NCBI GenBank assembly: GCA_963681505.1
Contig: OY811975.1
Coordinates: forward strand, 5,013,490 to 5,077,489
Source: Eunapius fragilis
Taxonomy: Eukaryota > Porifera > Demospongiae > Spongillida > Spongillidae
DNA: 64,000 nucleotides
Direction: 5' to 3'
The notes beneath the pieces are model-generated. The model worked only from the letters and a program-made list of their open reading frames with translations, did no database searches and was not told the DNA's origin. Position 1 is the stretch's first letter. Each line of letters opens with the position of its first letter. Positions 14,770 to 62,992 of the stretch are shown here, in pieces. The position numbers and the translations under genes were made by a program.

Positions 14770-15218
14770 TTGAACTTTGGGTACGAAAACTCCCAGCGTC
14801 TCATGACTGGTTTTTTTGTGTGGTACTTTCAGTTTCAGCACTGCACCCTTCTACCTACCCTGTAGCTGATATAATGAAGATATATATATTTCAAAAATTG
14901 CAAGACATATTAACAAATCAAGGAGACAGAGATAAATACAATTGCTGATTGTACGGTGAAATCCCCGAACGTTAGCATCCCTCTGCTGCTCCCATGTCTG
15001 CACCCTCACACTGTCCTTATGCTAACACAGGTGCACAACAGACATCAACACTGCAAGGACAGAAGGAACACATGTGATACACACTGCTGACAACCCACAC
15101 AAAAAAACTGGCATGCTCCTGAAGCAACCAATACTTCAGTATAACTTCTTTGTTGAGTTATAAGTTTGCCTTCACATCACTTGATGTGTATTTTCATTAA
15201 TGCTGATGGTCATGCACA

Positions 15219-15270
<52 letters not shown>

Positions 15271-16700
15271 GAACCAAATGAAATACGCCATGCATTTTGC
15301 AGGCTCATCATTTCATTGGCAGAATAGGTATCTGATTGAAGCTCATTTTCATTAATTTTTGTTAGTGCAAAATTAAATACAATTTTTAAAGCATTGATTG
15401 GTAAACTCCATTTATATATTTCTTTCACATTTTGCATCTTTTCTCTTAGTGTTTTTCCGAAATAAAAACTTTGAGCTTTGAGGGACCACACCCATTCAAA
15501 TTTCATTTTTTTGAGAGCCCTACGTAGTGGTGTTACATACCAGATTAACCACTAATTATAACTCAGTAAGACTACACCCATTTAAATCTGTGTGGGCCGT
15601 TTTTTATTTTTTATTTTTGAGAGCTGTTGTTTATTAAGTTTGTAAGCGGTACTACATACGTAACTGATGGCCACTTCTATCAACACTGTGGCTCTCAAAA
15701 ATAAACAAGAGGTTTAAATGTGGTCCTCAGAAGAGTACACTATGGGCACATGTGTTGTATGGGCTAGCAAACATTGCTCAAGTCATAAGCCATAGGTGGA
15801 CAAACAAATACGTGAGAAAAATTTGATGATGTGATTTGAAACTCATGCCCGCTTGTTTTGGAATGCCCCAGATGCTTAGATAAACCACATGTTATATAGT
15901 CTGATGTTTAGCTTTGGCAAAAAGGTCACAGTGAATATACATATGCACACATATGGGTAACAGTCATGATTGAATAGAGGGCTTCACAATCTGATTTTTT
16001 TTTTTAATACTCAGGATGTGACTTCACCTAGTAGCACTTGTTTTGTACAATACAAAGACTTTATTGTGCTTATAGCGTACTTCACGTACTTGAACCAGGG
16101 CAACTGTTACAACTATGTGATGTCACATCCGGGACGCATAATAATCGGGTACTGAAGTTGTCTATTCACAATGGAGGGAAGGTGTGTGTGCGTGTGTGTG
16201 TGTGGTGGAGCCCTCGCGATTAGCAGGTGGAATTTGAGGCTTTTAAGGTATTAAAAAGCACAGATTGGTCCCCCTCCCCCCCCCCACCCTCCACCCCACC
16301 TCAGTGTATGCTGGCTCTCATCCCATTTACTAACTTATCACTTATTGATTCAGTGGCAGTTATATAAATTGCACATGGTAGTGTATAGTCCGCTAATCCA
16401 CATGGCGCTAGTACTGATTCCACCACAATTGTCACTATTCACTCATAGTGATACCAATCTGAAAACATGGCAAATATGGGCTGGGTAACGTAAACACATG
16501 AACAACAGAATACTTTTAGGTGCAGCTGGTTAGTAACAGTATAGATGTCGTTTATAAGACTGTGGACACCAGAAATGTAGAGAGGTAGGCCTTCTTGGAG
16601 ACACATCAGCTTAAAGCTCTCATGGCTTTCTAAAATAATCCCACTGGTTTTGTCAACACCTCGGTTACCAAGTGTCACTGTGGCAACTCACATGACAGAG
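14770..16700. other. intergenic, with a (CA)n tract
   Basis: No gene is supported. A (CA)n run lies at 15221-15269. Sequence near 14985-15060 (CTGTCCTTATGCTAAC and neighbours) recurs near 48250, suggesting the large duplication reaches this far. Weakly mirrored GAGAGC/AAAATAA stretches at 15600-15730 may be an old inverted-repeat element. Confidence 0.55.
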
Positions 16701-16707
16701 TGCTGTT

Positions 16708-16850: not shown

Positions 16851-16930
16851 TTGCACTGGTACCGGTAAAAACACTGCATTTACACCATAAACCCCTTCCC
16901 CATGAGATTATGCTTACACAGTTGGTGAGG

Positions 16931-18073
16931 TCAAAGGTTAGGATTCAGTGGGCAACCATCACCTGCCAGACGCTCATTCTCAGCAAAGGCGAGGAGGTCA
17001 GACGCCCACCATAGCACCATCAGAGAGATCCAGAGGAGGAAACAGAAGAGGAGTGCCAGCCCCGCCCACTTATCCACTGAAAATGGACACGCAGTTGAAT
17101 GGGTAGGAGTCGAGGATGGATGGGGAGGAGGAAGGGGTGTGTGATGTAAAAGATGGCCATACAAACCACTATAAACCCCTCCCATCTGCTAAATACACCA
17201 GTGTGGGGTGAGCAGAGAGTGCAGTTGTGGATGGGGGGGAGGGGAGGGATGAACGTACCGATGCAAGGTGGGTGGAGCTTATATACATGTAGTGTGATTG
17301 AGTGTGAAACAAAAAACAAGAGAAGACTTACTACTTATGCAGCGATCTATGACAACCAGAGCAATAACGAAGAGGCACAGGAACAGGGGGGGCAGGAGGA
17401 TGAGGGTGGCCAGCTGGAAGCCAGCTATGAAGGGAGGGTGTGGTGAGAGTGGGAGGGTCATCTCGCATTGTACATTGGTTGACACAAATGCGCGAGGTCA
17501 TATTTGTGCCATCATGGGACAACCCAAAAATTGAGAGCTAGCCCACACACACGCACCCATGGTGTATTGTTCAATGTAGAAATTAGCGGCTCCCAGGGCA
17601 GACAGGAACAAGGAGAGAAAGAAGGCTGTCCTCTGGTCCTTCCTCAGGTCATTACAGGTCTGGGTCGTGTTGTCGTACTCCCAACATCTCTGGTAGGCAC
17701 ACGATTTGTACGAGTTTGTGGCATAGAAGCAGTCACTGCACACACATTTCTGATCGGAGCAGTTGATGTATTTGGTTGGTACGCTCGACCCGTCAAGTTC
17801 AGCAGGATAGCAGTCACTGCTGTCGGAACATTGCCCGGTTGGAACGGTTATTGCGCTGGGGGTGGGTGAGGAGGCGTAGAGTACATCAACAAGTGCTACC
17901 GGAATGAGTGTGCCACGCCCCCTCTGGAAACTCTAACTTATCGTAAAATAACCGGATCTTGCCCCCCCCCCCCCCCCCCCCCCCCCTCCCCCAACTTACG
18001 CGTTGCTTGGAGAAGCACACAGCAGCACAAAACAAAAGCAGCTACCAACAAATAAACATTTTCTTGCGGCCAT
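16931..18073 (-). CDS. TM2-family membrane protein, copy A (four exons)
   Basis: Exons on the minus strand are 18073-18000, 17855-17557, 17424-17332 and 17076-16931 (74, 299, 93 and 146 bases). All introns are GT..AG with matching phases, and join into 203 residues. Residues 1-25 are a signal peptide; 32-92 a Cys-rich extracellular segment with nine cysteines; 98-190 a TM2-type double membrane segment (AFFLSLFLSALGAANFYI, later LWWASDLLAFAENE and a GDGCPLNPNL end). TM2 proteins are two-pass membrane proteins of mostly unknown biochemical role; those studied in flies influence Notch signalling. The start ATG was chosen because it opens the signal peptide. Intron 1 contains a long poly-C run. 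A second copy with identical exon sizes lies at 49993-51119. Confidence 0.85.
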
Positions 18074-18292
18074 ACATCGATTATATACAAACATGTAAGT
18101 ACGTATGGGTGATTGCTATGACGTAATGTACTTATAAATAGAATGCGGTCAGATTTGTCTAATTTTATCTTGTGAGGTATTTCTCTCTTTCGGAATTTCT
18201 CTGTGTCCAATGCCGGTACAATCGAATGACACACAAAACACTTTTAACACATGGGGCAAGAATTGAAGGATATAAAAAGAAATTAAATAATC

Positions 18293-18314
18293 AGGACCTA
18301 CGGCAGTAGGTCCT
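18293..18314 (-). promoter_or_regulatory. 9/4/9 hairpin upstream of TM2 gene A
   Basis: Read in the gene direction, arms AGGACCTAC and GTAGGTCCT close a TGCC loop, 220 bases upstream of the ATG. The equivalent hairpins at 51326-51347 and 20195-20216 differ in sequence but remain fully paired. Whether it acts in DNA or in a 5' leader RNA, or is a transposon end, is unknown. Confidence 0.6.
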
Positions 18315-18504
18315 ATGTAGGATTGGCTCCGTAGGCGTGGTTTTCGATCGAGCGTTAGAAAACGGAATATACGCTTCGTAGCCACTTGCCAGTCGCTATA
18401 AAATCTGCCCCAAACACGCTGCATCTATAGTCCAACGAGCGATGTTCGCAACCCTGCCGCTGTCTCCAGACGGTATAGTCAATCCCTCGAATCCGCCATT
18501 TTTT

Positions 18505-18552
18505 TTCTCCTTCTTCTCCTTCTTCTTCTTCTTCTTCTTCTCCTTCTCCTTC
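18505..18552. repeat. (CTT)n low-complexity tract
   Basis: CTT/CTCCTT run. Similar purine/pyrimidine triplet runs occur near 19960, 51570 and 55230, in related flanking sequence. Confidence 0.85.
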
Positions 18553-18821
18553 CTTTCGTCAAACATAACTCAAGTTAGGAAAAGCGGGAATAAATGATAT
18601 TTGCACCAAAATGTAGCGCTCGATGCGACGTTTCATCCATTGTGAATATTGAAACTATATAATTTATATCAGTTTCGATATAAATTAATAAAGAGTGTGC
18701 GTGGGTGTATTTTTGCCGATTTATAGAAAATAAAGTATACATGCGGGTGGACAGTCGGATAAGGATCGCAACTAAATGTTTGGACCCATATGTTGTCGGG
18801 CTTTCGTCCATTCAAATTGCT

Positions 18822-19110
18822 ACAAGTAATAAAAACATTCTCTACACGAGAAGGTTGGTGGTATATAGGAATCAAAGGTGAGATGGTGGTGTAAAAAGCA
18901 AGGGAACAAGGCTTTTGATTGAAAAGGAAAAATGAAATAGACCTATATTAGCCGCATGTTGTCATATTTTAATGTGCGTGCTAATATAGGTCTATTTCAT
19001 TTTTCCTTTTCAATCAAAAGCCTTGTTCCCTTGCTTTTTACACCACCATCTCACCTTTGATTCCTATATACCACCAACCTTCTCGTGTAGAGAATGTTTT
19101 TATTACTTGT
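18822..19110. mobile_element. foldback MITE, copy FB1
   Basis: Two 131-base arms (18822-18952 and 18980-19110) are near-perfect reverse complements around a 27-base spacer. The outer 60-90 bases (ACAAGTAATAAAAACATTCTC, then GGTGGTATATAGGA and GGTGGTGTAAAAAGC) are shared with FB2-FB6; the inner part of the arm is largely private to this copy. Confidence 0.9.
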
Positions 19111-20194
19111 TTCCTAAATTTTTCTGGTGCATTTGGTATTGTACTTAGTTCTTGAAACGCATAGAATAAGGTAGCATAAACGTCAACTTGCGCGATCATG
19201 ACAGGTTTATATTAGAATATGCAATTCTGTTGAGGTGTGTACCAAATATTACACTAGTCCCCAGACTATCTCCATTGAGGAGCAAAGGATTGATAAAGGT
19301 TAAAAACGAAGCCATATAATACAAAGAATAAATGCACTCTAAGTAAACTGATCTCACGCTATAATCAGATAAACCATGCACCACAATACATGACCAAATT
19401 GACGTAAGCAACTTTGGCGTTATACACACATTTCAAACAGCGCATATTACTGTAAAACGGAGAGACGCAGTATCTCCACCGCTGTAACTAAACTATTCCT
19501 TCCATTTTAGCGATATACCATATGCATGCTTATAATTTATCGATCCAACATTTATCGATGCCGTATAAACGTACCTTTGGGTGGTCGTTTTGTTGTTCCT
19601 TTCGGTACCGCGCTTGACATACGCACGTTTGACAGATCTGGCAGCATCTGGATCTTTCCACTTTTATATGCTCGAGTGGAATCAGAATTGTCCTCATGAG
19701 ATTATATGGTAAAACCATCGAATTTGATAACACTGGTTATATTATACTGGTGCGTCATGAACATTGTGATAGCTGATGTAATGTGCTATTTGTAGATCAA
19801 CACCAAATAAGGTACTACTCGCTTCAGCCAATTGCCTGATCGGTTAGGCGTCTAACAGATACCTGAAGATAACATGCGGACACATCCTGAAGCGATTGGT
19901 ACACATGGCGTGCTTTACAAACGTTCCTGTCGTGAGTTATACTCTCCGGAAGGAAGAAGAAGAAGAAGACGACGAAGGAGAAATTTTAGGTGGGACTGGG
20001 TACGGACGATGGGGACGAGTATTTTTGTTCTCTAAAAGTACACCGTCTTATGACATATGTATGACGCAGAACTGTTCTCCTTTTTGATATTGCTCGATTG
20101 CCACTAAAAGCGAAGTGACCCGACTCTTGGCTGTCCTGCTAGACGCGAGTGACGTTTTTTTAATGACATTCATGATACTGCAGGATTCCTATAT
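19111..20194. other. intergenic, dispersed repeat flank
   Basis: No gene is supported. The stretch 19850-20240 resembles 55130-55480: both share AGATACCTGAAGAT-like, AAGCGATTGGTA, GAGTTATACTC and a GAAGAAGACGACGA run, so it is a dispersed sequence that precedes hairpin-bearing starts. Confidence 0.5.
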
Positions 20195-20216
20195 GGAACC
20201 TACTCGCGTAGGTTCC
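20195..20216 (+). promoter_or_regulatory. 9/4/9 hairpin upstream of the Helitron ORF
   Basis: Arms GGAACCTAC and GTAGGTTCC close a TCGC loop, 104 bases upstream of the ATG and on the sense strand. It is the third member of the hairpin set found upstream of the two TM2 genes. Because Helitrons carry hairpins near their 3' ends, a transposon-end origin is also possible. Confidence 0.55.
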
Positions 20217-20319
20217 GATTCGAACTATGATCAAAGTGCCGGAGGTCAATTTTGAATCAAGCACGTGATCTTGCACGTGTGTTCATTTTTTGTGTAAGCT
20301 TTTTGGCGATAGTTGAAGC

Positions 20320-23300
20320 ATGCCTTCCAGTCAACAAAAACGAAGAAAAGCTCAAAGAGATGCATACAATAAAAACAAAGACAAGATTTTGCAAGAACGT
20401 CGTTCGATGGCAACTAAAGAAAAAGCCAGAGAACGTTACCAGTCGAACTCTGAGCAGAAGCGTGCCGACGAACGACAACGTTATAGAAGAGATCCTGAAG
20501 CGAATCGGGCCAGGAAAAGGGCAAAATACGACGCAGACCCTGAATCAAAGCGAGACGCTGAACGGGCGCGCTACGATAAAGACCCTGAATCGAAGCGAGC
20601 AAAGAAAAGGGCAAAATACGACGCAGACCCTGAATCAAAGCGAGACGCTGAACGGGCGCGCTACGAAAAAGACCCTGGATCGAAGCGAGACGCTGAACGG
20701 GCGCGCTACGAAAAAGACCCTGAATCGAAGCGAGACGCTGAACGGGCGCGCTACGAAAAAGACCCTGAATCTAAGCGAGACGCTGAACGGGCGCGCTACG
20801 AAAAAGACCCTGAATCTAAGCGAGACGCTGAACGGGCGCGCTATGAGAAAGACCCTGAATCGAAGCGAGACGCTGAACGGGCGCGCTATGAAAAAGACCC
20901 TGAATCGAAGCGAGACGCTGAACGGGCGCGCTATGAAAAAGACCCTGAATCGAAGCGAGCAAAGAAAAGGGCAAAATACGACGAAGACCCTGAAACAAAG
21001 CGAGCCGCTGAAAGAGCGCGGTACCAAAAAGACCCTGAATCCAAACGGGTTGGTGAGCGCAAACGCTACCTTGTTCATGCTGAAGCAAGAAAGGCAGTTA
21101 AAAGGGCTAAATATTCAGCATGGTCTGGTCTAAACACTGCCTCCCAAATGCTGAACAATAAGAAGTCAAAGATTAATCGGTGAGTCCATGCATGTAATAC
21201 TGTATACTATAGCAAGTACTGTTGAAATAAGTTACTGAGCATTTTGTTGTATTTAAATTTAGGTGAGATAAAGTAATGTAATGTTTAATTTAATTTTTAC
21301 TCAGGTTTTGTCTCTTTGAACCAAGAGATGATCAAGGGCAGGTGTATTGCATGTTGCTTGAAAAAGCACTAAATAGCAATAAAAACTTACAAGAAAAGGT
21401 AACTGAAGAATTTAAGGAAGCACATGAATGGTTGGCTGACAAAGTATGCACTAGATCAGAGCATGCAGCAGTGTGCAAAATAAGTGCAAATAAATTGCTT
21501 GGCTTAGCGCTTAATGTTCGGAGAGAAAAAGCGGCAATGTTCCTAAAATCTGTACGCTCAATAAATGCACTAAAATTAAATCCCAGTGACATTTCAGATA
21601 GAAATGGAATTCATATGAAGAGCTCAGAGCCATACTTCTATGAAACATCATACACATATGATAAACATATGTTAGCAATCCCTGTTGACACTAATGGCTG
21701 GTGTGTTGTGGCTAAAGAAGTAAAGGAGGGTAAAAGTAAGGGTGAAAGTAGTGACCTTCCCAAAAATGACAATAGTGATAGTGACCGTCCCAAAAAGTGG
21801 CTTTGCACAGGTCAGTGTAGACTCTTGAGTGATGAAGAGGTAGATATTGTTATAAAAACAAAGTTACTTTTCACAAAGCCTGTACCAGACATTAGAGCAG
21901 CACTAGGTGACCTTGATAAATGTTGCCACATTGATCGTGACCTATGTGCAGACATTTGTGATGAGGAAAAGGGCACACAATATTCTTACCTCTTGGGACA
22001 TCCAATTTCATGCAAATATCCAACTTGTCCATCTGTAATATGGGTGATTCGGTCTGGTTCCACACACTATCCAGTCCTGCGTCAGTTCTTACGTTTGCTT
22101 TATTCTGTGCTGAAAAGCCACAAAATCATTGCTACTATTGATGAGGCACTTGGTGCTGGTGATGTGGAGAGATTGATGGATTTTATACAAAATGCAAACC
22201 TGTTCAATAAAGATGGTACTAATAGTGCTGCTTTTTGCAACGACAACTCCACACCTGGTCTTGGTCCAATTGAGAGTCATCTTAGAGTTACTTATGCAGA
22301 GCTGATAGCAGATCTTGAGTCACAATACAAAGATGACCCAGTATACCCTTGCTTGAGCTGTGAACGCTTACACCAGCGGAAGCAAGTGTCCTGTGTAAAT
22401 CTTAAGCACGATACAAAGTATCAAACTGCCATATGGTTACAACTAAAGAATCACATAGGTGTTGTTACCGATGACCTCTATGTGTGTAGTTATTGCAGAC
22501 AGTACCTAAATAAAAACACAATGCCTTCCCGGTGTATTCTAAATGGTTTGATAACTGAACCAGTACCAGATGAGTTGAAAGGGCTTGATGCATTGAGTAA
22601 GCAACTAATTCAGAGGGCAAAAGCATTTCAAACTGTAGTAAGGTTAGGCACATACAGTGGTAACCAACCTGCTCATAATTCATTACAGGCATGCAAAGGC
22701 ATTATGTTCTATTTGCCCCTTCCTCTTAATAATACATTTGAGACAGTTACTGGGGTAGAGGGAAATGCATCATTGCCTGATCCTCAGCTGTATGTTATTG
22801 TTAATGGTGTCCCAACTAAAGATAAAGTAGTTTGGCAAACTTTAGTTGATGTCGATCGCATCAAAGCAGCAATACAAAAACTCAGAAGTATAAACTGGCT
22901 GTACAGTTCTATTAATGATTTTAGTTTAAGTGAGATGGGACGTAAGGTTGTTGAGGTTTTTGACAACACGTCAAGTTGTATGATTGAAAAGCTAACATCT
23001 GATGATATAGCAGCTTTCCAGTCTTACACTATTAGATCATTAGATCAGAAGTTATCTACTGCTCTGGACACCGAGCAGTACATGATGCAAAGGGTGAAGG
23101 AGCATCCAATAGATAATAGGCAGGCACATCTTGATGTAGCATGCTTTCCAACTTTGTTTCCAAGTGGTCGATTTGGCGAGTTCCATGCACGGGCTTTGAA
23201 ACTCTCCCTCGCTGAATATGTAAAGTCCAGGCTGCTTAACAAAGATTGTCGTTTTCGTAAAGATGCTCAATATATATTCTTCCTCTTGTGGCAGCATGAA

Positions 23301-26300
23301 ATAAAGCAGCTTTCTGCAGGCATTTACAACCTTCTTAAAAGTACAAAAAGTGCAATCCCTGTTGGTGCCTTCCTCTCAAAGGTGTCCAAGTCAGATGAGG
23401 AGGTTGAAAGAAATCTTTCTACTATATTTCAATCTGTGCGTGGCACAAAGCAATACTGGTTTCTGCGCAGTTCAGAATTGAAATGCATGTTAAGGGAATT
23501 TGGACCTCCAACACTTTTTGTAACACTCTCATGTGCAGAGTATGACAATGAGCACATATCTCGCTACCTAAGGAAGGTCAATGATGTCCCAGAGAGTTAT
23601 TCTATTTCTCGACTCTGCACAGAGGATCCTATATCTGTGTCGAGGAAATTCTCTGCTAATTTTCATGCGCTTTTTAATAGTTTAGTCTTGAAAAGCGCAG
23701 TGCTTGGAATGGTAGAACATTATTTCTATAAAAAAGAATACCAAGCACGTGGAGCTCCACATTATCATATTGTGCTGTGGATTGCAGATGCTCCAGTCAT
23801 TGGTAAAAGTAGTCCTAACGATGTCATTAAGCGGATTCAGGAAAGAATCACATGTAGAATCCCAAATGCAGATCAAAATCCTGAGCTCCATAGGCTTGTA
23901 ACCAAATACCAGTTGCACAGGTGTACCAATTATTGCAAGCGCAGAACAAAAGTCAAAAATGCTTACATTACAAAGTGCAGATTTGGTTTTCCTAGAGATC
24001 CTTGTGATTGTGCTGTGCTTAACCCTGTGGAAGAATGTCTAAAATCTAGAAAGAAGATTTACAATCTTCCAAGAGCTGCTGAAGAATCACGTGTAAATGA
24101 CTTCAATCCACTGTTGCTTCTTATGTGGAAGGCCAATATGGACATCCAGTTCATATCTGAGTCTTCACTTGCTTTAGCTCACTATGTGACAGGATACGTC
24201 ACTAAAGCAGAAAAGGGTAACATGCAAGATGTGTGGCAACAAGTTAACTCCAATGCTAGTCTATATAGTAAACTGTGGAGTTTTGGGGTACGTAGTTTCA
24301 GGTCAAGGGAGTGTGGCCTGTATGAAGCCAGCGATCTATTATTGGGTGATCACTTATATGAGAAATCAGAACAGGTGAAATGGGTTGATGTTTCACTGCC
24401 ACATAAGCGTAAGCGCAGGTTGAAAGATCACAACGTACTGCTTAAGATGCAGGAGAGTGACCCCAACTCTACTGACATCTTACAAGCAAGCATGCTGGAC
24501 ACTCATTACCCTCAGAGGCCAATACAGCTTGAATCTGTATGTCTTTATGATTTCATCAAGTGGTATGAATACAGTGGTACTAGTCAGAGTGGTGAGCGTA
24601 TGTACACCAAAGTGTCCAGCCCTCGTCTTCCTAACCACAAGCTCTTTGATCCAAACAACGAAAACCAGAGAGAAGAATATTTTTATTCTCTCATGCTATT
24701 GTTTGTACCTTTCAGAAATGAAAGTGCTCTTTTAGGCGAGGGTGAGAATGCTGAGGCAGCATTCAACCGTCACATCCATTGCAACAAAGACCTGTTTGCT
24801 CACCATGACAAACTACAGGCTATGTTGCAGGCACAATCCAAGGTAAAAGAGATAAATGAGGCTAGGGATAAGGAACAAGAGCCTTGCGATCTCCCAGTAG
24901 AAGATTTGTTTGTGAAGGGTGAAGCAAAAGATGCACTAGAAGATGTATTTCTCAGAAATGAACAAGTACCAATAGAAGCCACTTTACAAAGCTGCATTGA
25001 TAAGCTAAATAGTGATCAATTTCGAGTTTTCAGCAATGTAGTAGATCTCATGAATCATTTAAGAAGGCATGAAGATGGTGCATGCTCATGCAGGCAACTC
25101 CATCCACTTCAAATGTTTCTCTCGGGTGTGGGCGGTACTGGTAAATCATTCTTAATACATACCATCCGAGCTCAAATTGCTGACATATGGAAAGACACTC
25201 CAGATACTGCAATGACATGTGCTATTGCGGCACCAACAGGTTTAGCTGCATTCAACATCAATGGTGTTACTGTACACAGGCTATTTCAGCTGCCTGTTGA
25301 ACATGAATCCAAAACATCCACTTACTGGCCCTTGCCAAAAGACTCTGTTAAAATAATGCGTGCTGGTTTTAAACACGTGAAGTTGATTATCATAGATGAG
25401 GTATCAATGCTCTCGAGCCTCAATTTAGCATACATACACTTAAGGTTAGAAGAGTTGTTCGGTGGTGACCAGTGGTTTGGTGGGGCTAATGTTCTCTTTG
25501 TGGGTGATATACTACAGTTGCCTCCTGTCAATGGGTCACATGTGTTCCAGAATGTGTGCAATAAGGTCATAGCTGCACGACTTGGCTGTTTGGCCTCTGT
25601 AAACATATGGCGTGAAACTGTGTCTTATGATGAATTGACTATTAATGAACGTCAGAAAAAAGATTCAGAGTTTGCTAACCTGCTTAATGATGTTAGGGTG
25701 AATTGTTTATCTGAGAAAACCATTGCATGCCTACAAAGAACTGTTATAAATTGCAAACCATTTGAAAAGTTTGTGGAACTTCAGGCATCTGGGCAGCAGT
25801 TTCCAGTGTGTCTGCTTGCCACACGAAAAGCATGTGACCAGTTCAACAGTACAATGCTAGATCGGGCTGGGTCGCAGGTAGTAAAAATTGCTTGCATTGA
25901 TGAATACGATGAAACTGCTGGAGTGAAATGGACAACGAAAGCCTCTGCTGCACTAGAAAAGTTAAACCATGACTGTAATAATACTGCTGGATTAGAAGCA
26001 GAGTTGACCATAGCAGTGGGGGCTCGAGTTATGTTACGCAGAAATATTGACACTGGTCGTGGATTGGTGAATGGGGCGCTTGGTTGTGTAAGCGCTATCA
26101 GTAAGGACTCAATTGAGGTGCTATTTGATCATTCCCCAACCTCACGTGTTAAAATACAGCGTGTTAAAAGTAAATTTCAGGTCATGAAGCGGTTTTATGT
26201 GCTGAGAAAACAGTTCCCCTTGATCCTAGCATATGCCATAACCATACATAAGTCACAGGGCATCTCTCTTGATTGTGCCATAGTAGATCTGTCACAAGAT

Positions 26301-26732
26301 GTGTTCGCAACAGGAATGGCATATGTAGCTCTTTCAAGGGTGAGATCTTTATCAGGCTTGTACCTTTGTAACTTTGACCCTAAATCTATCAAGGTCAGCA
26401 AAGAGTGCATTGATGAATTAAGTAGACTAAGAAAAACATTTAAACCTGACCTTCCCTGCATTGAGCATTCTGTTAAAAACATATGTAGAAAAAAACTGAC
26501 TGTAGCTACTGAATTAGATGACTTGGTTCAGCCCACAAATGTAACCAAGCAACATCATTTACCTGTGATCCATGGTGATAAGATCAAAGGTACTATCATA
26601 CCTCTAGAGCACGACACTAAGAAAAAGGGTCATGGTGTAATTACTCTGAAGCCTAACATTATGCACGAGTCTTCCAGTGATGTAATAGTTGTACCACAAG
26701 AACCTCTTACAACATGGCCTAACTTAAGGTGA
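20320..26732 (+). CDS. Helitron Rep/helicase transposase, one intron
   Basis: Exon 1 (20320-21179) and exon 2 (21305-26732) join across a 125-base GT..AG intron (G|GTGAGT, TTTTTACTCAG) in matching phase, giving about 2095 residues. Residues 1-60 are basic; 61-250 hold thirteen 15-residue repeats of RYEKDPESKRDAERA type, probably a charged helix. Exon 2 then has Cys pairs and a Helitron-like N-terminal domain, a rolling-circle HUH motif (GAPHYHIVLW, near residue 1103), a two-tyrosine motif (YVTGYVTK, near 1247) and a PIF1-like SF1 helicase: Walker A GVGGTGKS near 1561, IIIDEVSM, FVGDILQLPPV, TIHKSQG and ALSRVRS. It would nick, unwind and copy DNA in the nucleus. No stop or frameshift is seen, so the copy may be recent. 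Element termini were not located. Confidence 0.9.
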
Positions 26733-49360: not shown

Positions 49361-49799
49361 GGTGGATCCAGGGAGTGGCAGCCGATTGAACACATTTGAT
49401 CAGAGTTATTAGCATGTCAGTAAGTCAAACATTGGGCCCAACACACAGAAGAATGAAATGTAAGCCAAGATATACATGTACATGTGTTACATTTACCCTA
49501 TTAAGTATTCATACTTACTGCATGGGGTAGAGAAAACCGGTATCAAAATTACATAGTGGATTTGAAGATTCACACAACAAGATTTGGTCAAGTATTACTC
49601 CTCCTCCCCCCCCCCCCCTTCCTCCTTTGGCTGATATGATGATGGGTCATTTCAGACCCTCCCTCTTATCTTGGCTGGTGTAGTGTAACACTTCCCCTCA
49701 TCTTGGCTGGTATGATGCATTCCTCGTAATCACATATCTGGATACCATGTATTCTAATTGTGTGAGTAACACCTACAGTACGCACTAATGGATCTGATG

Positions 49800-49935
49800 T
49801 GAACATGCCATGGGTGCTACTGGAACACCTCACATCCTCACATGCTACCGGAGCACTTAACATGACATAGGTGTTAATGGAACACCTCACATGCTACCAG
49901 AACACTTTTATGACATGGGTGCTACTGGAACACCA
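49800..49935. repeat. second block of the CACCTCACATG minisatellite
   Basis: Three diverged copies of the same unit as 48640-49210, just 3' of TM2 gene B, part of the local tandem duplication. Confidence 0.88.
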
Positions 49936-49992
49936 AATTCATATCTTCCCTTCCCATCGATTCATCAGATTATGCTTACACAATTGGTGAGG

Positions 49993-50261
49993 TCAAAGGT
50001 TAGGATTCAGTGGGCAGCCATCACCTGCCAGACGCTCATTCTCAGCAAAGGCGAGGAGGTCAGACGCCCACCATAGCACCATCAGAGAGATCCAGAGGAG
50101 GAAACAGAAGAGGAGCATTGCACCTAGCCATCGCTCAACTAGAATGAGACACAGTGGAGTGGTGATATGGTGTGTAGAGAATGAATGGATGAAAGGAAGA
50201 AGGCATGGCCGCATGGATCACCTCCCCTTCCACCTCTGCTAACACACGAAATGTTTGCAAC

Positions 50262-50318
<57 letters not shown>

Positions 50319-51119: not shown

Positions 51120-51325
51120 ACATCGATTGTATACAAACATGTACGTATGAATGATTGCTATGACGTAATGTACTTATAAATAGAATGGCGAAACTTCTCC
51201 CTCTTCTTGTGAGGTATTCCTCTCTTTCGTTCTCTGTGTCTAATGGCAGTACAATCGAACGACACACAAAAAGATTTTAACACACGGGGCAAGAATTGAA
51301 GGATATAAAAAGAAATTAAATAATC

Positions 51326-51347
51326 TGAACCTGCGGCAGCAGGTTCA
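51326..51347 (-). promoter_or_regulatory. 9/4/9 hairpin upstream of TM2 gene B
   Basis: In gene direction, arms TGAACCTGC and GCAGGTTCA close a TGCC loop, 207 bases upstream of the ATG. Relative to copy A, three pairs have changed on both sides (A-T to T-A, G-C to A-T, A-T to G-C). Confidence 0.6.
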
Positions 51348-51829
51348 ATATAGGATTGATTGAGGGTTGATGAATGTCATTAATAAATCTTCACTAGCGT
51401 CTGGAGGGACAACGGAGAAACGGATCGCTTATCTCTTTATCGCGATGGAATGAGAGCACAACGATCTACAGTTCTACGTTTGTTCCGTGTCATAAAACGG
51501 TGTGGTTATAGAGAAACAAACAATTTCCTGTTTCTCGTGCCCAGTCCCAAAATAATTCTCCATCGTCGTCGTCGTCTTCTTCTTCTTCTTAGGAAGGTAT
51601 AACTCGAGCTAGGAACGGTTTTGGAGGACGGGAATAGTACCAATCGCTTCGAAATTTACCGGCACGTTATCCTTACATGTCATATAGACATACATATGTC
51701 AAGTTCTATTTATTAATAATTTTAGGCAGTTATAAATACTCTAACCTGCACTAAATTTATCCAGTTTAATATATTAGTTGTTACGTTGGCTAATAGTGAA
51801 GTTCTTTTTCTAAGAAGAGATCTAAAGCA

Positions 51830-52260
51830 ACGAGCGGAATACCTCCAAAGCAATACGAGAACAAAGCTAAAGCCCGAGCGCTCTACAAGGCCAATCCCAA
51901 AAAAAAGAAGGCCTCTGTACGCGACAGCTACAAGGCCGATCCCGAAATGAAGAAGGCCTCTGTACGCGACAGCTACAAGGCCGATATTGAATCTAAGCGA
52001 TCTGCTAAAAGGTGGCGATACGAAGAGGACCCCAAGGAGAACCGTGCTGCTCTAAGGCGGCGATATGAAGAACCTCGAGGAGAACCGTGCTGCTAAAACT
52101 AAAGGCGGCGATATGAAGAGGACCTCGAGGGAAATCGCGCTGCTAATAGGGAGAAATATCAGCTACCATTAAAGCATCTGAAAGGAGACGGTATTGAAAT
52201 GATCCCGCTGTCTGATTGGCTAAATGTGCTGCCGAGAGGACGCGGTATCGCAGGGGTCAC
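51830..52260 (+). pseudogene. relic of the DPE-repeat domain (Helitron N-terminus relative)
   Basis: The plus strand is open from about 51826 to a TAA near 52097 and encodes six units of a 15-residue repeat such as YKADPEMKKASVRDS and YEEDPKENRAALRRR, the same period and pattern as the RYEKDPESKRDAERA repeats at the start of the Helitron protein. After 52070 it loses frame in further repeats, and no Rep or helicase part follows. It lies at the same place relative to TM2 gene B as the Helitron does to TM2 gene A. Confidence 0.75.
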
Positions 52261-52334
52261 AGAACTACCACTACCACCCAAAGGTATGTTATGGCATGTT
52301 GTATTAACATTAAAAAGCTGTGCATGCAGCATTT

Positions 52335-52421
52335 GTACAGCATAGTCGGGCGGCCCTACTACCGCGTTTGGTCGGGTTTGTCACCCTACTACCTGTGGGT
52401 AGTAGGGCCCGCCCGACTATG
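52335..52421. repeat. inverted repeat
   Basis: CATAGTCGGGCGGCCCTACT and its mirrored form AGTAGGGCCCGCCCGACTATG flank about 33 bases; arms are 23-25 bases with one indel. Confidence 0.85.
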
Positions 52422-52429
52422 TACAGCAC

Positions 52430-53120
52430 GGATCTGCACAAAACCATTCACTTTACATGTAAAGCATGCATGGTGACTCAACTGTGTGTACAGTAGTGTC
52501 TATTGTTTTAATCTGATAAAGCTTCCTTATCTGAAGACTGCCTTGTCTAGCCGTGAATGTTGCAACTGTATGAATATAGTTACAGTTGCAAGGGCTGAGA
52601 ACTAAATAGCTGCAACTGTATCCTTTTCCCATATAGCTACTCCTTGTATAAACCCAAATCTCATGCACCAATGGAGTATAATGGTGGTCTTGAAAAAGCT
52701 ATTCTTAGGGGTAGTGATCTGCCTGTGCAGCAGTAAGTAAGATAAGCCACCATCAGTTACTTCTAGCAGCACACTCACATTTATGTAGTGAAATAAAAAC
52801 AGACCTTCTGCCCACACTTATAAAGCTGCAGACCCTGTCCACAGATAGGACCTCACCTGAGAACATATCCTTATCGATCGATCTACATGCTGCCATGTAC
52901 TGCCATGTAGTTCACTTCCTTAGTTCCCACACTACCCATCTATACAACTTAACTGCATGTAGGCTACACCTCCATGTTTAGATGGGACCATTTTTACTGG
53001 ATCAAATTTGACCAATAGAATTTTAGCACAACTGACACGCATACACCCCTTCCCTCCCTGTCATTAATATGATGGAATTGGACTAATATAATTATAGCAC
53101 AGTCTGTACACGTGTAAGGC
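52430..53120. other. intergenic, no gene recognised
   Basis: No supported coding region or repeat structure. Confidence 0.5.
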
Positions 53121-53128
53121 TTTGCAGG

Positions 53129-53136
53129 TATAAAAG
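53129..53136 (+). promoter_or_regulatory. TATA box of Pro-rich gene 2
   Basis: TATAAAAG lies 25-30 bases before a GCAAAAAGAG|GTAAAA donor-like site at 53161; with the acceptor TATATGTAG at 53255 this makes a short 5' non-coding exon and a 95-base intron, ending immediately before the ATG. Confidence 0.55.
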
Positions 53137-53255
53137 CCACTCATCCGCTAGCAAAAAGAGGTAAAAATTTAATAATACTCTATGTAGATGTGTAAAGGCT
53201 CTGCACTAAATAAAGAAGTAAAAATTTAATCATACTCTCTGTTACGTATATGTAG

Positions 53256-53525
53256 ATGGCTGACGACCTTCGCGGGTTTTTCACCAATGAGGGGTCGGAG
53301 GAGGAAGAGTACATTCATCCTCCAACTCCTCTCCCCTTCACCCCACCACCTCCAGAAGCCCCGCTTCTGCCACCACCACCAGCAGCACTGCCCACACCAC
53401 TACCAGCAGCTACTCCCGCCGGCACTACCAGCGCTGCCCCCACCGGCACTCCTGCCTGCACCATCAGTGCTGCCCCCACCACCAGCAGTACTATTAAAGT
53501 TATTTGTTCTTGCATTAAGAGATAA
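53256..53525 (+). CDS. Pro-rich protein, copy 2
   Basis: An 89-residue protein of unknown function: acidic N-terminus (MADDLRGFFTNEGSEEEEY), Pro-rich middle (PPPPEAPLLPPPPAALP), then a Thr/Ala/Ser-rich part and a short Cys-containing basic tail. It sits before foldback copy FB3 exactly as the Pro-rich gene at 29870 sits before FB2, and has the same TATA, short leader intron and ATG-at-acceptor design. Protein similarity between the two is limited to composition and the acidic start, so common origin is inferred from position and structure. Confidence 0.45.
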   Translation: MADDLRGFFTNEGSEEEEYIHPPTPLPFTPPPPEAPLLPPPPAALPTPLPAATPAGTTSAAPTGTPACTISAAPTTSSTIKVICSCIKR

Positions 53526-53603
53526 AGGGGATCATCCATCCTCTTCCTACATTTGATTATTGACTATGATACTGCTATGACAGGGTGAAAAAAAACTTAT
53601 GAA

Positions 53604-53894
53604 ACAAGTAAATAAAAACATTCTCTAACGAGAGAGTTGTTGGTATATAGGATTGACCAATGGTGGTGTAAAAAGCATGGAAACAAGAGTGACAGAAATA
53701 TTATTGGAAAATTGAAATAGGCCTATATTTAGCACACAATACAACACACATGCCTGAATAATGGGCTAAATATAGGCCTATTTCAATTTCCAATAATATT
53801 TCTGTCACTCTTGTTTTCCATGCTTTTTACACCACCATTGGTCAATCCTATATACCAACAACTCTCTCGTTAGAGAATGTTTTTATTTACTTGT
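53604..53894. mobile_element. foldback MITE, copy FB3
   Basis: Arms of about 130 bases; outer part shared with the family, inner part (AGTGACAGAAATATTATTGG) private but mirrored almost perfectly. The innermost ATAGGCCTATATTTAGC resembles that of FB1. The 150 bases after the right arm (TAGCATTGCGAGTCAACCCG onward) match those after FB2. Confidence 0.9.
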
Positions 53895-54102: not shown

Positions 54103-54246
54103 CACAGCAAAAAAAGGGGGTCGAACATTAGAACATATGCCATTGATTTGACAGTCACATTCCTGATACCGGATGTTGAACATCCTGTATCGGGAATGGG
54201 ACTGTCAAATCAATCGCAAATCAAAATTTGGCGTTTTTTTGCTGTG
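54103..54246. mobile_element. small inverted-repeat element, CACAG ends
   Basis: Begins CACAGCAAAAAAAGG and ends GCGTTTTTTTGCTGTG; the centre is a GACAGTC..ACATCCTG hairpin. It corresponds to 31223-31354 in the other copy of the segment. Confidence 0.75.
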
Positions 54247-54422
54247 TGTAGTATTTTTGGGCTAATCCCTTTTTTGATGCACAATGCCTATAGTTTTAGT
54301 ACTGCACATCAACCACATTCATGCACTACAGTATCTTCCAGAGCATGAATTTTTTACGCACATGGCGTTATTCGTTTCTTGCGAGTTGTAGTTGTAGAAA
54401 AAAACTACATTTCTAAGATAGT

Positions 54423-54846
54423 ACAAGTAAAGAAAAACATTCTCTAACAAGAAAGTTGTTGGTATATAGGAATTGGAGGCAATGGTGGTGTAAAAAGGAA
54501 GGGAACAAGATTTTGAGAAAAGGGTAATGAGACAAAAANNNNNNNNNNNNNNNNNNNNNNNNNNNNNNNNNNNNNNNNNNNNNNNNNNNNNNNNNNNNNN
54601 NNNNNNNNNNNNNNNNNNNNNNNNNNNNNNNNNNNNNNNNNNNNNNNNNNNNNNNNNNNNNNNNNNNNNNNNNNNNNNNNNNNNNNNNNNNNNNNNNNNN
54701 NNNNNNNNNNNNNNNNNNNNNNNNNNNNNNNNNNNNNNTAATTACCCTTTTCTCAAAATCTTGTTCCCTTCCTTTTTACACCACCATTGCCTCCAATTCC
54801 TATATACCACCAACTTTCTCGTTAGAGAATGTTTTTCTTTACTTGT
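54423..54846. mobile_element. foldback MITE, copy FB4, with a gap at its centre
   Basis: Left arm 54423-54538 and right arm 54739-54846 are mirrored (outer family sequence, then ATTTTGAGAAAAGGGTAAT and its reverse complement). The 200 N at 54539-54738 fall exactly at the loop. Confidence 0.88.
54539..54738. other. assembly gap (200 N)
   Basis: Exactly 200 undetermined bases in the loop of foldback copy FB4. Confidence 0.99.
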
Positions 54847-54898
54847 TTCCTCTATTTTTTTTATTATCATTTTTATCGATTATTAAGACTGGCAAGTG

Positions 54899-54925
<27 letters not shown>
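54899..54925. repeat. poly-C run (27 C)
   Basis: Uninterrupted C run. Confidence 0.95.
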
Positions 54926-54929
<4 letters not shown>

Positions 54930-55129
54930 CTTCAATTACCGTCACGAGCAGATGCCCGCTTTTGTTTGGGATCACTGTAAGGAACGCGGGAAAATTCTAA
55001 CTCGTCGTTTCGTTGTTTAGCTTTCCTCTTTATTTGCACAGTTCCAAATATACGTAAATGTCGCCATGGGAACGCTTCTATTTAACACTACGCATTACGT
55101 AATGATTACGTATGTCAGTTTTATGCTTT

Positions 55130-55480
55130 ATTCATGCATCTGATACTTGAAGATGTCCTTCCAGGAGATTCTAAAGCGATTGGTATAATTGGCGCTCTTT
55201 AAAACCATTCCTATCCGGAGTTATACTCACCCGAGAAGAAGACGACGACGACGACGGAGATGATTTGGCCTGGGGACGAGTTAAAACACGAACTTTTTTG
55301 TTCTCTTAAAGCAAACAGTTCGAAGACTGGAATAAAACATTTAAATGACCGTCTTTGCCTTCTGGTTCGATAGCAACAAAGAGCAACACTGTCCGTTTCT
55401 CGGTACGAGAGTTATGCGTTTTTAAAATGATATTCATGACCCGGGTCAATTCCTATACAGGAACTACTCTGATATATTGG
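55130..55480. repeat. dispersed flank, related to 19850-20240
   Basis: Shares AAGCGATTGGTATA-like, GAGTTATACTC and GAAGAAGACGACGACGACG features, and a shortened TTCCTATACAGGAA hairpin at its end. No gene. Confidence 0.6.
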
Positions 55481-56389: not shown

Positions 56390-57500
56390 AAAGCAGTAAT
56401 CAATATACAAACTGCTCCAGAGCCGCCCTGAAAATATTATTGTTCTACAATGAGCAATGATCAGCCAGTTTTATTCATCAACGATTTCATGAGTATTAGC
56501 TATTTTCTGAATGCCAAGGACTTCAGAATCTGCTGGATTTGAATGTTTGAGGTGGCAAAGTTTCAGTTCAAATGATACTGTTCTTAACTACTGCAAGGAA
56601 ATAAGCTAACACATATATATAGGTGGGAATGCAATCATTTATATGCCAAAATACATAGATTGTGAATTAATAATGATATTGACATTCATGAAGAGTAATC
56701 TCTACTGCACTGATGGTCCAATGTTTATAATAGCAAATTGAGAAAATACAGATGAATGACAATGATAACTAGCACTCCGGCTGTTGGGAGAATATTTTAG
56801 ACATAATGATAAGCATTATTCGATAAATAAGCATAGCTCCAGCATTTTTGGGTAGATAGTGTTGCAATGAATGGGAATAGGTGATACCGACACACCCTCT
56901 TCCAGCCAATATGATACGGTACCTCCTATATGCAGAGTATACAAACTGTAACCTAATCTATTCAGAGCTATTCATGGTTCATAAATTTTAAAAAGTAACA
57001 ATAGAGAATGTAATAACTGAAGTGTTCAGCACCATAAAGCATTAAGAAAAATTGATGTTATGTCATCTGTAATGTTGGACCTCTCAAAGTAAATGTGAAC
57101 ATGATGAAATTATCTGGAATGTGAATATACACAGAGTAAAAATGTGAATATACAAGAATGAGCACAACACCGTCACAAGTAACACATCTGTATTCATAAT
57201 TTACAGTTCTGTTTGGGAGTGTAACTATGCTGACAAACAGAACTGTTAATTATGAATACAGATGGTTACTTTGTGACGGTGTTGTGCACATTCTTGCATA
57301 GTAGTATGTATTTCCATAACTTGAAACTTTGGATTTGTTATAAGAATTATTCATTGTAATGTTTGAACCAGAAATGGCTTAAAAACAAAGTTTGCGCCAA
57401 ATTTTCCTTGATTTCTTAGGAAGAGGTTGCCACCATTTAATCCACAAGCTGGATCTTTCATAATTACTGTAGAAACTGCTTTTTTAGTGTGTTGTTGCAT
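56390..57500 (-). pseudogene. beta-helix receptor-like relic C
   Basis: Minus-strand fragments match the C-terminal end (56430-56900) and, near 57355-57500, an N-terminal part of the intact receptor (bases around ACCAGAAATGGCTTAAAA and GGTTGCCACCATTTAATCCAC). The rest is deleted or eroded, with an inverted-repeat element inserted at 57152-57297. Confidence 0.8.
57152..57297. mobile_element. inverted-repeat element in relic C
   Basis: Arms of about 60 bases (CAAGAATG..CACAACACCGTCAC and ATGAATACAGATGGTTAC with their mirrors) around a spacer of about 25 bases; two small indels. Confidence 0.85.
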
Positions 57501-57504
57501 CTGG

Positions 57505-57912
57505 TTTGGACAAATTTTAGAAACACATATTAAGCTCCGAGACATTGTCCTTGAATCATCTCATTGTGCAGGCATCAGTGCTATGGTTGAAGCAGGCAGT
57601 TGCCTAGGACACAATCTCTGTCGACAACGCCCTGCAGACATCCTTGCTTCAAACTGGCAAACCTGCTGCCTTCGATCTCACTGTGACCTGTCCGCTAAAC
57701 CCTTCCATTATTTTGGAAGTGAGTCAGGATCAGCAGCAGCTGGTACTGAGCTTAGGAAGCACTCTGCCAATGAGGGTAAATGCATCGGAGCTGGGGTGAG
57801 CCTGTATTCCCTTGGTGGTAGAATCTTATGGAGCTTGGGGCACAGACGCCCAAGAGGCTTTCTCTCATGCCTGGCCTCTCGCCTTGCCACCACCAAAATT
57901 ATCATTTTTATT
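57505..57912 (+). pseudogene. retroelement C-terminal fragment, subfamily 1
   Basis: In plus-strand frames the text reads RPADILASNW, then GKPAAFDLTVTCPLNPSII, then ACIPLVVESYGAWGTDAQEA and FSHAWPLALPP. This ordered set (KPAD.L..NW, G.P.A.D.TVT.PL, .C.PL.VE.YG.WG.EAQ) is the tail that follows the reverse transcriptase in many non-LTR-like ORFs of invertebrates. Frame changes and an in-frame stop show decay. No reverse transcriptase core is present. Confidence 0.7.
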
Positions 57913-59589: not shown

Positions 59590-62040
59590 TCAGTTATCCA
59601 TCAATGGTTCACGGTATTCGCTATTTTCTGATGACTGGTGAATCACAATGACTTCAGAATATGCTGGATTTAAGTGTTTGAGATGGGAAAGTTTCAATCC
59701 AAATAATGCTGTTATAGCATTGCTCAAAACTACTGCAAGGAAACAAGCTAAGGCCACACCTACACCTACATAGGTGGGAATGCAATCGTTTTTTGCCAAA
59801 ATGGATAGCTAGTGAATTAGTAATGATATTGACATGAAGTGTAGCACTGATGGTCCAACTTTTGTAAATAGCAAATCCAGAAAAAATGATACAGGAATGA
59901 ATGACTATGATAACTAGCAGTATCATTTCTGGCTGCTGGGAGAATATTGTTGATGTAATGGTAATAATCATTCGGTATATGAGCATTGCTCCAGTCCAGA
60001 AACGATAACGGTCCTTGAATGGTGCTTCATAGCTATCTACTAGAGGCTTGATTGATCAAGGAGAATATTCTCCAATGAGACAGCTTTACTAGATATGGTG
60101 TCAATGGAACCAACAGTGTATAAGGCACAATGAAAAGTATGGCGACCATTAGACCGAATATAAATAGACTTATGTGTTGTGGTCCAAGGAACTGCACATT
60201 TCCATCATAAGACCACACCAGTAGAGAAGTGCTATTGGATGTAGCCATACGAGAAAAAGTGAATATTATTGAGACTGTCCTAAGCATTTTTGAGTAGATA
60301 AGTGCAATAAGTGTTGCAATGACTGGGAATAGGCGATAACGACACACCCTGGAGATTTTAGATGATACCCTTCCTGCCAGTATGATGGCTCCAATAATTG
60401 CTGACACATATGCAGAGAATACAAACTGTAACCAAATCTTTCCAGTGCTATCCATGTGTTCATAAAAGCATGTTTCAATTCCAAAGTCTAGGTTTAACCA
60501 AGCAATGAATGGTGAAAGCAAATATGCCTTGCAGGTGAAAGGGAAAAAAATGTTTCTATTCATATTGATGACGAATGCATACAAGACAAAACAATTGATT
60601 GTTCCATTACTGACAGTGAAATTAAATGTTAATAAGAAAACCACCAATGCCACTCCCATGAGGGCAAATGGGATCAGAAGTAAAATGTAGTGGTTGGAAC
60701 ACTTTGAACTGCACTGAGGTGATCCGAGCATCATACTTAGGTCATCTTGACACTGACCACATAGTATACCAGAGCGGTTGTATTTGCATTGCATATCAGG
60801 ATGATGCAAGCTAATTGTCATTGAACCATTGCAATAATCAGCTGGACAGTCATTCAATATTCCAATGGCATTATTTGAGATAATACCAATCCACTTTGCA
60901 CCTGATGTCCATGAAATGTACTGATCATTGATGTCACACTTCAAGCCATTGTTTTTAAACTGTTCATTACAATCACATGCAGATGATGTATTGTCTATTG
61001 AAAATCCAATTGGACATGGTACCAGTAATAGAGTTAAATTAAAACTAAATGACTCCATGATATCAAATATATTATTGAACTTTGTGTCTGGTGCCATATA
61101 TATAATGTTATTGGGATTTTGCTTCTTAGAGGGAAGATTGTATGCATGACAATATTTGGCAGTTCTAAATGCAGAGTTAATGATGATTCCATTTTCATAA
61201 TACCATGTGTAGACAATATCAGGCACAATCCCACCTCTTTGGCCACGAGCAATAAGTGATTTTGAAAATATTTCTCCAGGATACCGCTTGTACAATTGCT
61301 CAGTGTAATTCTTATCTGAGCATTTGATTACATGACTTTCGTTGCAGTAACACAGAGTTGTAGGGTCTGATGCAAGTGTTGAATTGCCATATTGTATTAT
61401 ATCAGTTATCATATCAAATATTGCTCCTGATGAATTCATGCACCTATCATGATACTGATGTGGTATGCTAGTACAATCCAAGGTACAGCTGTCAATGTTC
61501 CCTCCATACAGCACACTGCCTGCCTCCCCAGCATAGTTGCCTTCAAAATGCATCACCACACTTAAATTAATAGTAGCTTGAAATTGAAAGAAACATTGTG
61601 ATTGCATGTATGGTGATGGAACACCAGTTTGGACATATATGGCACCACCTTTCAAGGAAGCAGTGTTATTAATAAACAATACATTGGATGGAGAGAAGAT
61701 AAGCATGGAGGATGTCCGATCAATATAAAGTGCTCCACCATAAGTCGCATTGTTGTTTGCAAATAGCACGACTGCAAATTCTTTAATAACTAGTTTAGAA
61801 CTCGAATTGCCCCCCCCCCCCCCCCCCCCCCCCACCTCTATTTGAAATGGTACTTGAAAAATTAATGTTGCCACTTAAAATAAGAAGCGAATTTATGGCA
61901 GTGACAAGACTATGGAAGAATTTACTATTGGTGACATTAATTTCAGCTGGCTCACAATACAGTTCAGCATACATAAAATACGAGTTTTCCACCCATACAT
62001 GAGTGTATTGTTTACTGAGCACATCAAATCTCTCATTATG
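59590..62040 (-). pseudogene. beta-helix receptor-like gene, 5'-truncated copy D
   Basis: Aligns to residues of about 480 to the C-terminus of the intact receptor, with high similarity (CKYNRSGILCGQCQDDLSMM and SYDGNV are unchanged). It is broken three times: a 24-C run at 61810-61833 replaces a Gly-Gly coding stretch, a 5-base deletion near 60050 falls in the loop before SYEAPFK, and a frameshift near 59800 precedes the last helix. The N-terminal 480 residues are missing, and the receptor upstream flank joins directly at about 62100. Between the breaks the frame is long and open (613 codons), so decay is recent. N-glycosylation-type sites and helices are as in the intact gene. Confidence 0.85.
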
Positions 62041-62099
62041 ATCAAAAACTGATTGAAAATATATTTACCACCCTCAGAGGAACCATGCAAAGACATGCA

Positions 62100-62992
62100 G
62101 TCCATTATAATGGTTTAGGTTTACATGTACATTTGACAAGAGATCTTCCCAAACTTATTTCAACTTGAATTGTCTGCTTACTAATTAAGCGATAGTTTGA
62201 ATTATCCAGCTGTGTGGTGCATATGTGCCTATCGCCTGGGGACCCCGACTGATATTATACAACCAGACTAATATGCATATGCATCTATCTAAATGCAGTT
62301 ATGAATGTGAAAGAGTTGATCCGTTTTATAAATCAATGTACGAAACGAGTTAACGAGGCCATTGGCCTCATTCATGCCGTCCTATGATTTTAATTATATC
62401 TCAGTACTACTTATAATATTAACTCTATGTCGGTCACTGTATATGCATCACGTGTGGAATTTTGTAAGCTGTCACTCACGCTGATTGACGTAGCGGCGCT
62501 CGGTAATTCTATGATACGCCAGGCCAGATAAGGCGACAGTCGCTGGATACCACCCAAATGCGGCATTATTAATAACTCTTTAAATTGATTTTACTGACGA
62601 CGCATTACAGATGAAATAATAATTTGAGAGTGCTTTTATGGCATAGCATGTTTTTACTATTAGGGTGCAAGTCTGCGGTCTTGCATGTAATAATCTTTCA
62701 AGCAACTGATGCAATTGTATCTCGAATTTTTTTAATACAAGTGATCGCATTCTCTGTATCCGGCAGTATTTTCTTTATGGCGAAATACGGGTACATGCGT
62801 GTACCTTAATTTAAGTTATATACATGCCTCAGGCTCCTGTTATACTAATACAGTAGGGACTCTTGCACGTATCAGCACCTGTAGGTAAAATAATAACTTC
62901 ATCTGGAAGCAAAAGAAACCATTATGTTCTTAGCCTGATACGTGCCGGTCCAAAATATGAGCCTATCCGCAGCTACATAACACCCCTCATAA
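62100..62992. other. duplicated receptor 5' flank with an insertion, no gene
   Basis: 62105-62330 and 62905-62992 match 39895-40230. About 580 bases between them have no counterpart there and no recognised coding content; a CAGTAGGGACTCTTGCAC-like motif near 62851 may be an old MITE end. Confidence 0.55.

Follow-up and report, generated by a model that had tools for sequence, protein, structure and literature searches.

Does the 64-kb stretch of the sponge Eunapius fragilis analysed here (contig OY811975.1, C5:5013490-5077489; hereafter the window) contain two diverged copies of one multi-gene segment, as the initial annotation proposed from a repeated order of genes and repeats, and, if so, by what route was the segment copied? 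We examined the window together with 50 kb on either side (164 kb in total), with genome searches covering 219 Mb in 24 contigs; coordinates are in window numbering, also for features beyond the window end (that is, above 64,000). Along the plus strand the array reads T1 - unit 1 - T2 - unit 2 - T3, in which two collinear units lie between three TM2-like genes and the middle gene is a fusion of the outer two (Table 1). We suggest that the array very probably arose as a tandem segmental duplication by unequal crossing-over (non-allelic homologous recombination, NAHR) between the directly repeated genes T1 and T3. Duplications of this sort are commonplace; the mechanism is unusually clear here.

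Two collinear units

Self-comparison produced one long series of plus-strand matches between the 17-43 kb part and the 50-64 kb part, that is, a shared diagonal rather than isolated repeat matches only. With mobile elements masked in both units, 26 plus-strand and 3 minus-strand matches were obtained, 16 of which chain in one order over 6,568 aligned bp. For a control comparison, unit 1, with its Helitron-type element E1 and its CACAG-ended miniature inverted-repeat transposable element (MITE) masked, was tested against unit 2, blocks of flanking DNA and one shuffled unit 2. Unit 2 yielded 27 plus-strand matches (7,409 bits) and 5 minus-strand matches, whereas six blocks taken from the two outer flanks (about 15 kb each, except for one of 5.3 kb) yielded 2 (107 bits), 0, 0, 0, 0 and 0, and the shuffled unit (n = 1) yielded 0; the block at 67.6-84.1 kb gave 4 matches (379 bits). 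A genome search with positions 31050-33600 listed 83 matches (from the best 40 of 70 candidates), and those outside the array all fell within the MITE stretch. The masked chain and near-zero controls strongly support two diverged, same-strand, collinear copies of a multi-gene segment, as had been proposed. By descent, both units share the TM2-like gene, the MITE, the 3' flank of a putative receptor gene, the receptor relic R1, the receptor gene R2 and the right flank.

The limits of the copies have moved, from about 15-41 kb and 48.2-64 kb to 16,901-42,586 and 49,963-64,864. The unit ends at 42586 and 64864 are partners; unit 2 abuts the left flank of T3 at 64863, and unit 1 is separated from the left flank of T2 (from 47913) by a 5.3-kb insertion that is not present between unit 2 and T3.

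Could independent repeats and paralogues have lined up by chance, without any duplication? For four of the nine items in the repeated order (the hairpin, the DPE-repeat open reading frame (ORF), the Pro-rich 'gene' and the foldback) this account holds, and the earlier argument that the order excludes independent insertion was wrong, because these belong to one Helitron-type element per unit, the two being of different subfamilies and each closely similar to copies elsewhere in the genome. For the host sequence it is refuted by the masked chain and by anchors that, among the matches listed, are confined to the two units, which leaves chance alignment with next to no probability. A tandem misjoining of alleles or haplotypes by the assembler, which the initial annotation had itself raised, is also very improbable. 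N gaps lie at 7469-7668 and 54539-54738 in the 164 kb, and the second, being within unit 2, speaks for an artefact. However, T1, unit 1, T2, the element E2 and the start of unit 2 stand on one gap-free stretch (7,669-54,538), and this only gap inside the array falls between the 98%-identical arms of a single foldback, that of the element E4 (75-88% identical to other foldbacks of the window), whose host flanks are contiguous in unit 1 (31526|31527). Furthermore, the units differ by a non-coding divergence (K) of 0.09-0.21, and T2 holds sequence of both parents.

A predicted fusion gene between the units

Instead of the two TM2 genes annotated in the window, there are three: a genome search with T1 found T3 just past the window end (66143-67551, from C5:5079602). 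The predicted models, built from sequence only, have four exons each (18073-18000, 17855-17557, 17424-17332 and 17076-16931 in T1) and an uninterrupted reading frame, of 203 amino acids (aa) in T1 and T2 and of 205 aa in T3. PF05154 (TM2) is the best Pfam match of all three (E 8e-5 to 1.5e-4; 1.3e-4 for T1), yet we call them TM2-like only, because their scores of 22.3-23.1 bits are under the curated gathering cut-off of 27.9.

Left of a switch interval located by MaxChi within exon 2, T2 agrees with T3 at 188 of 201 informative sites (188:13), and right of it with T1 at all 19 (0:19), a split matched by 0 of 10,000 shuffles. The hybrid pattern extends over non-coding DNA: T2 follows T3 from the 3' end to exon 2, including introns that align at just 41-65% between T1 and T3, and follows T1 thereafter to the 5' flank. 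The flanks of T2 change partner in the same manner, pairing with T3 on the left (for approximately 2 kb) and with T1 on the right throughout unit 2. Judged from these alignments, T2 is a fusion of T1 (5' half) and T3 (3' half) with its switch inside exon 2.

Two details of the earlier account need revision. The minisatellites beside T1 and T2 had been paired, but the minisatellite and left flank of T1 show distant kinship only with those of T2 (a 38-bp core scoring 41, where 200 shuffles reached 22 at most; one 33-bp match at 91%), the left flank of T2 pairing with that of T3 instead. Synonymous divergence (Ks) between T1 and T2, suggested as a check, comes to 0.026 for exons 1-2 (two differences at 78 sites) versus 0.247 for exons 3-4; between T2 and T3 the values are 0.185 and 0.051, and T1 and T3 differ by 0.22 overall. 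As T2 is a hybrid, Ks of T1 versus T2 is confounded as a date for the duplication, and dating by it was rejected.

In a separate comparison of 16931-17424 with 49993-50487, T1 and the T3-type sequence are strongly unlike where exon 3 ends and exon 4 begins, and the rest of exon 4 is about 97-98% alike, giving a block-like pattern.

Crossover, conversion and uneven divergence

Tandem duplication by NAHR between paralogues leaves a hybrid gene, as in the Lepore/anti-Lepore type. In such an event here, T1 and T3 would be older direct repeats that mispaired and exchanged inside exon 2, and the product would read T1 - segment - T3/T1 hybrid (that is, T2) - segment - T3. For genes on the minus strand, a T1 x T3 crossover would take the left (3') half of the hybrid from T3 and its right (5') half from T1, which is the arrangement observed. 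The units would then have decayed separately, with R2' (the unit 2 partner of R2) breaking, Helitron-type elements inserting and the 5.3-kb element landing at the end of unit 1. NAHR is expected to leave n units between n + 1 direct repeats, and three same-strand TM2-like genes surround the two units; the middle repeat should be a hybrid with one switch point, as in T2 (0/10,000 shuffles), and its flanks should switch partners accordingly, as do those of T2 (left with T3, right with T1). The gene order, the presence of three TM2-like genes, the collinearity of the units, the hybrid with its switch point and the differing outer flanks are observed; that a single crossover made the hybrid and the duplication together we infer.

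The array thus resembles the Lepore/anti-Lepore type in having direct repeats around every unit, one repeat more than there are units, and a middle repeat that is a hybrid of the outer two. It differs in the kind of repeat, a small TM2-like gene in which the exchange fell in exon 2, and in the content of the segment, which carries a large membrane-protein gene besides the exchanged genes. We regard it as a base-level case of a TM2-like family copying its neighbours, among them the large membrane-protein gene, and producing a predicted fusion protein en route. Among chimeric gene duplicates (PMC3449122), fusion genes with an open frame arise at duplication junctions. T2 is likewise a predicted open-frame fusion at such a junction, but differs in that its parents are mutual paralogues joined at matching codons.

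Several observations weigh against a single crossover as the whole account. A single event would lead one to expect uniform divergence across the segment (although uniformity is not strictly defining), and this was not found: K is 0.109 for the T1-T2 intron and 5' flank, 0.089 near the Helitron site, 0.116 after E4, 0.131 in the MITE stretch, 0.168 in the R1 flank and 0.210 at the far end (between T2 and T3 it is 0.067 for introns and 0.108 for the left flank). Three stretches near the TM2-like genes differ at 91 of 932 sites versus 228 of 1,401 in two far stretches (p = 1e-5), the groups having been picked after the values were seen and the MITE stretch (15/125) excluded. R2 and R2' differ by a Ks of 0.495 and a non-synonymous divergence (Ka) of 0.161 over the open block, which we keep as a contrary result only and not as a date, R2 belonging to a large gene family and R2' being broken. 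The synonymous values of T2 (0.026 and 0.051, on few sites) lie under its non-coding values. A conversion tract in an already duplicated array could likewise yield a hybrid gene, and the case is built on a single, duplicated chromosome of one genome.

One event with one clock, then, does not fit well. Two histories are likely, and we favour neither: exchange near the TM2-like genes that went on after the duplication, or a duplication of greater age followed by several rounds of exchange. Such exchange would have kept the TM2 neighbourhood more alike than the receptor end. Taken further, the same values (divergence lowest beside the TM2-like genes, K of 0.17-0.21 in farther flanks, a receptor Ks of 0.5) might suggest that the tandem duplication is older and arose by another route, T2 having become a hybrid only afterwards, when gene conversion brought in either the 5' half from T1 or the 3' half from T3. 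We consider this rather improbable: the outer flanks of T2 switch too (about 2 kb on the left and all of unit 2 on the right), which a short tract would not bring about, and on either side the units end at TM2-like genes.

Helitron-type elements and a shared host site

What had been listed as separate items (the Pro-rich 'gene', the DPE-repeat ORF, the hairpin and the foldback) are all parts of the Helitron-type elements E1 in unit 1 and E2 in unit 2. All four are dispersed in many genome copies. The DPE and Pro-rich ORFs were considered as host genes and rejected, as they co-occur at C1, C3, C6 and C11; a locus on C13 carries the Pro-rich part and the 5' hairpin, and one on C21 the DPE part and the hairpin. 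In E1, Helitron_like_N (1.3e-25) and PIF1 (3.8e-21) domains are encoded in one ORF. Its nearest relatives are 98-99% identical at the 3' end over 681-806 bp (C13 and C1), and at the 5' end 97.7% over 259 bp (C13), 94.8% (C21), 92% (C3) and 91% (C6). These relatives are partly incomplete, the exact left end having been located by pattern in three of six left pieces and the right end in two of four right pieces; in a fourth left piece, on C3, the BLAST match begins at the left end of E1. For E2, at least 32 further copies of nearly full length are 94-99% identical (among the best 40 of 2,399 candidates, with a query that ended 293 bases early). All ten of these copies that were inspected at both ends begin with a 5' TC and lie between a host A and T, with no duplicated target; A|T insertion was also seen at three left and two right ends of E1 relatives and at the empty site of E4.

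E1 and E2, which are young and of different subfamilies, resemble each other only over some 30 bp at their 5' ends (83%), in the foldback arms of about 100 bp (80%) and in two short internal segments (35 and 45 bp). Their 9/4/9 terminal hairpins (18293-18314 and 51326-51347) differ at three stem positions, changed on both arms such that the stem is kept. Some copies of E2 (C11:2908589-2911387, C13:1614713-1616961 and C7:4224195-4228074) seem to have the first approximately 400 bases inverted or another copy nested. Helitron1 and Helitron2 (PMC5148889) combine Rep-like and PIF1 domains with a 5' TC, A/T insertion and a 5' terminal hairpin, and all of these occur here. Unlike the elements described there, E1 and E2 have a 3' CTTG rather than CTRR, and their 3' foldback, about 300 bp long, stands where Helitron1 has a short hairpin 10-12 nucleotides inside the end; an OTU ORF (in E1), a DPE-repeat ORF and a Pro-rich ORF are further cargo.

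Both elements are inserted between ...AAATTAAATAA and TAGCATTGCGAGTC, at an identical host A|T, 218 bp upstream of the T1 start codon and 205 bp upstream of that of T2. This occupancy of one base position by two Helitron subfamilies is the surprising part of the locus and stays unexplained. Unit 2 host sequence has 1,074 AT dinucleotides, so that a chance repeat would occur about once in 1,000 insertions if every AT were equally likely to be hit. Any preference for the neighbourhood of the promoter would raise the chance, but the paralogue loci described below gave no support for one. Between independent insertion at one preferred point and the replacement, through recombination at the termini, of an element already present in the ancestor, we find the balance even. 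E1 and E2 are both young and have little common sequence for a replacement to use, and the junctions hold no visible trace of an earlier element. Then again, the site is identical to the base; joined flanks, as an empty copy would have, were not found in the genome search, where the halves occur only at the two units; and, by eye, the flanks of ten E2 copies and five E1 ends have nothing in common but A|T, with so many AT sites on offer in unit 2. Nor is there support for a hot spot of Helitron insertion in front of the TM2 paralogues, with Helitron pieces at two of five paralogue loci, by eye not above their abundance in the 164-kb region.

More specifically, a swap of whole transposons of different subfamilies, exact to the base, at an occupied site, through short terminal homology or re-use of the A|T, is a tentative idea that we hold to be rather doubtful. 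If true, old insertion sites can be refilled, and a shared insertion site would not mean the same insertion. The locus already cautions that transposon order or a shared insertion point is no proof of common descent, as here the point is common and the elements are not. Among the papers listed on Helitrons sharing or replacing a site, titles and abstract openings described no case of two Helitron subfamilies at one paralogous site.

Table 1. Features of the array, in window numbering
Feature	Position	Strand	Remarks
Unit 1	16901..42586	+	host sequence, broken up by E1
T1	16931..18073	-	intact four-exon TM2-like gene, 203 aa; gene model from sequence
E1	18291..31045	+	autonomous-looking Helitron-type element; 11.4 kb without nested insertion; 5' hairpin, DPE ORF 20320-21183, Rep-helicase ORF 21342-26732, OTU ORF 27740-28303, Pro-rich ORF 29870-30574, 3' foldback 30745-31045
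E3	18823..20217	-	shorter Helitron-type element nested in E1; not in relatives at C21, C3, C6
MITE, unit 1	31225..31355		CACAG-ended; inserted before duplication; partner 54103-54252
R1	33364..34765	-	receptor relic; retains only an N-terminal (aa 1-264) and a C-terminal piece; tblastn
Receptor fragment	35232..35554	-	aa 553-666; between R1 and R2
R2	35944..39789	-	intact 1281-aa membrane-protein ORF (putative receptor); ORF, hydropathy
Old foldback relic	40237..40489		same place in both units; partner 62991-63259
5.3-kb insertion	42587..47912		ends CACTGTTAAAAAAAAAGG/CCTTTTTTTTAACAGTG; between unit 1 and T2 left flank
T2 left flank	47913..49962		with 48-bp minisatellite; partner of T3 left flank
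Unit 2	49963..64864	+	passes window end at 64000; then T3 left flank 64863-66084, then T3 66143-67551
T2	49993..51119	-	intact predicted fusion, 203 aa; T1-type exon 1, most of exon 2 and 5' flank; T3-type exons 3-4, introns 2-3 and 3' flank
Switch interval in T2	50606..50711	-	within exon 2; MaxChi
E2	51324..53893	+	2.57-kb Helitron-type element; host A|T identical to that of E1; no room for Rep-helicase ORF
MITE, unit 2	54103..54252		partner of 31225-31355
E4	54424..55472	-	Helitron-type element of unit 2; foldback interrupted by the assembly gap (54539-54738); site empty in unit 1 (31526|31527)
R1'	56571..57518	-	partner relic of R1; unit comparison
R2'	59593..62022	-	partner of R2; without 5' part, frame-broken

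Receptor genes and neighbouring features

The term receptor was taken over from the initial annotation and is putative. R2 has no Pfam match at 0.001; its C-terminal third has six helices by hydropathy, and a structure of the C-terminal 502 aa predicted from 6 sequences has a mean predicted local distance difference test score (pLDDT) of 45. A genome search with R2 gave at least 45 match rows (among the best 36 of 352 first-look candidates), indicating a large family, and short receptor-like stretches at 83.3-83.4 kb may point to more decayed material. The insertion at 42587-47912 has inverted ends (CACTGTTAAAAAAAAAGG). Within unit 2, a 184-aa minus-strand ORF at 58090-58644, without a Pfam match, presumably resembles the tail of a non-LTR (long terminal repeat) retrotransposon ORF. 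At 13354-14766 lies an intact 470-aa ORF with RING, TRAF-type zinc finger and MATH domains.

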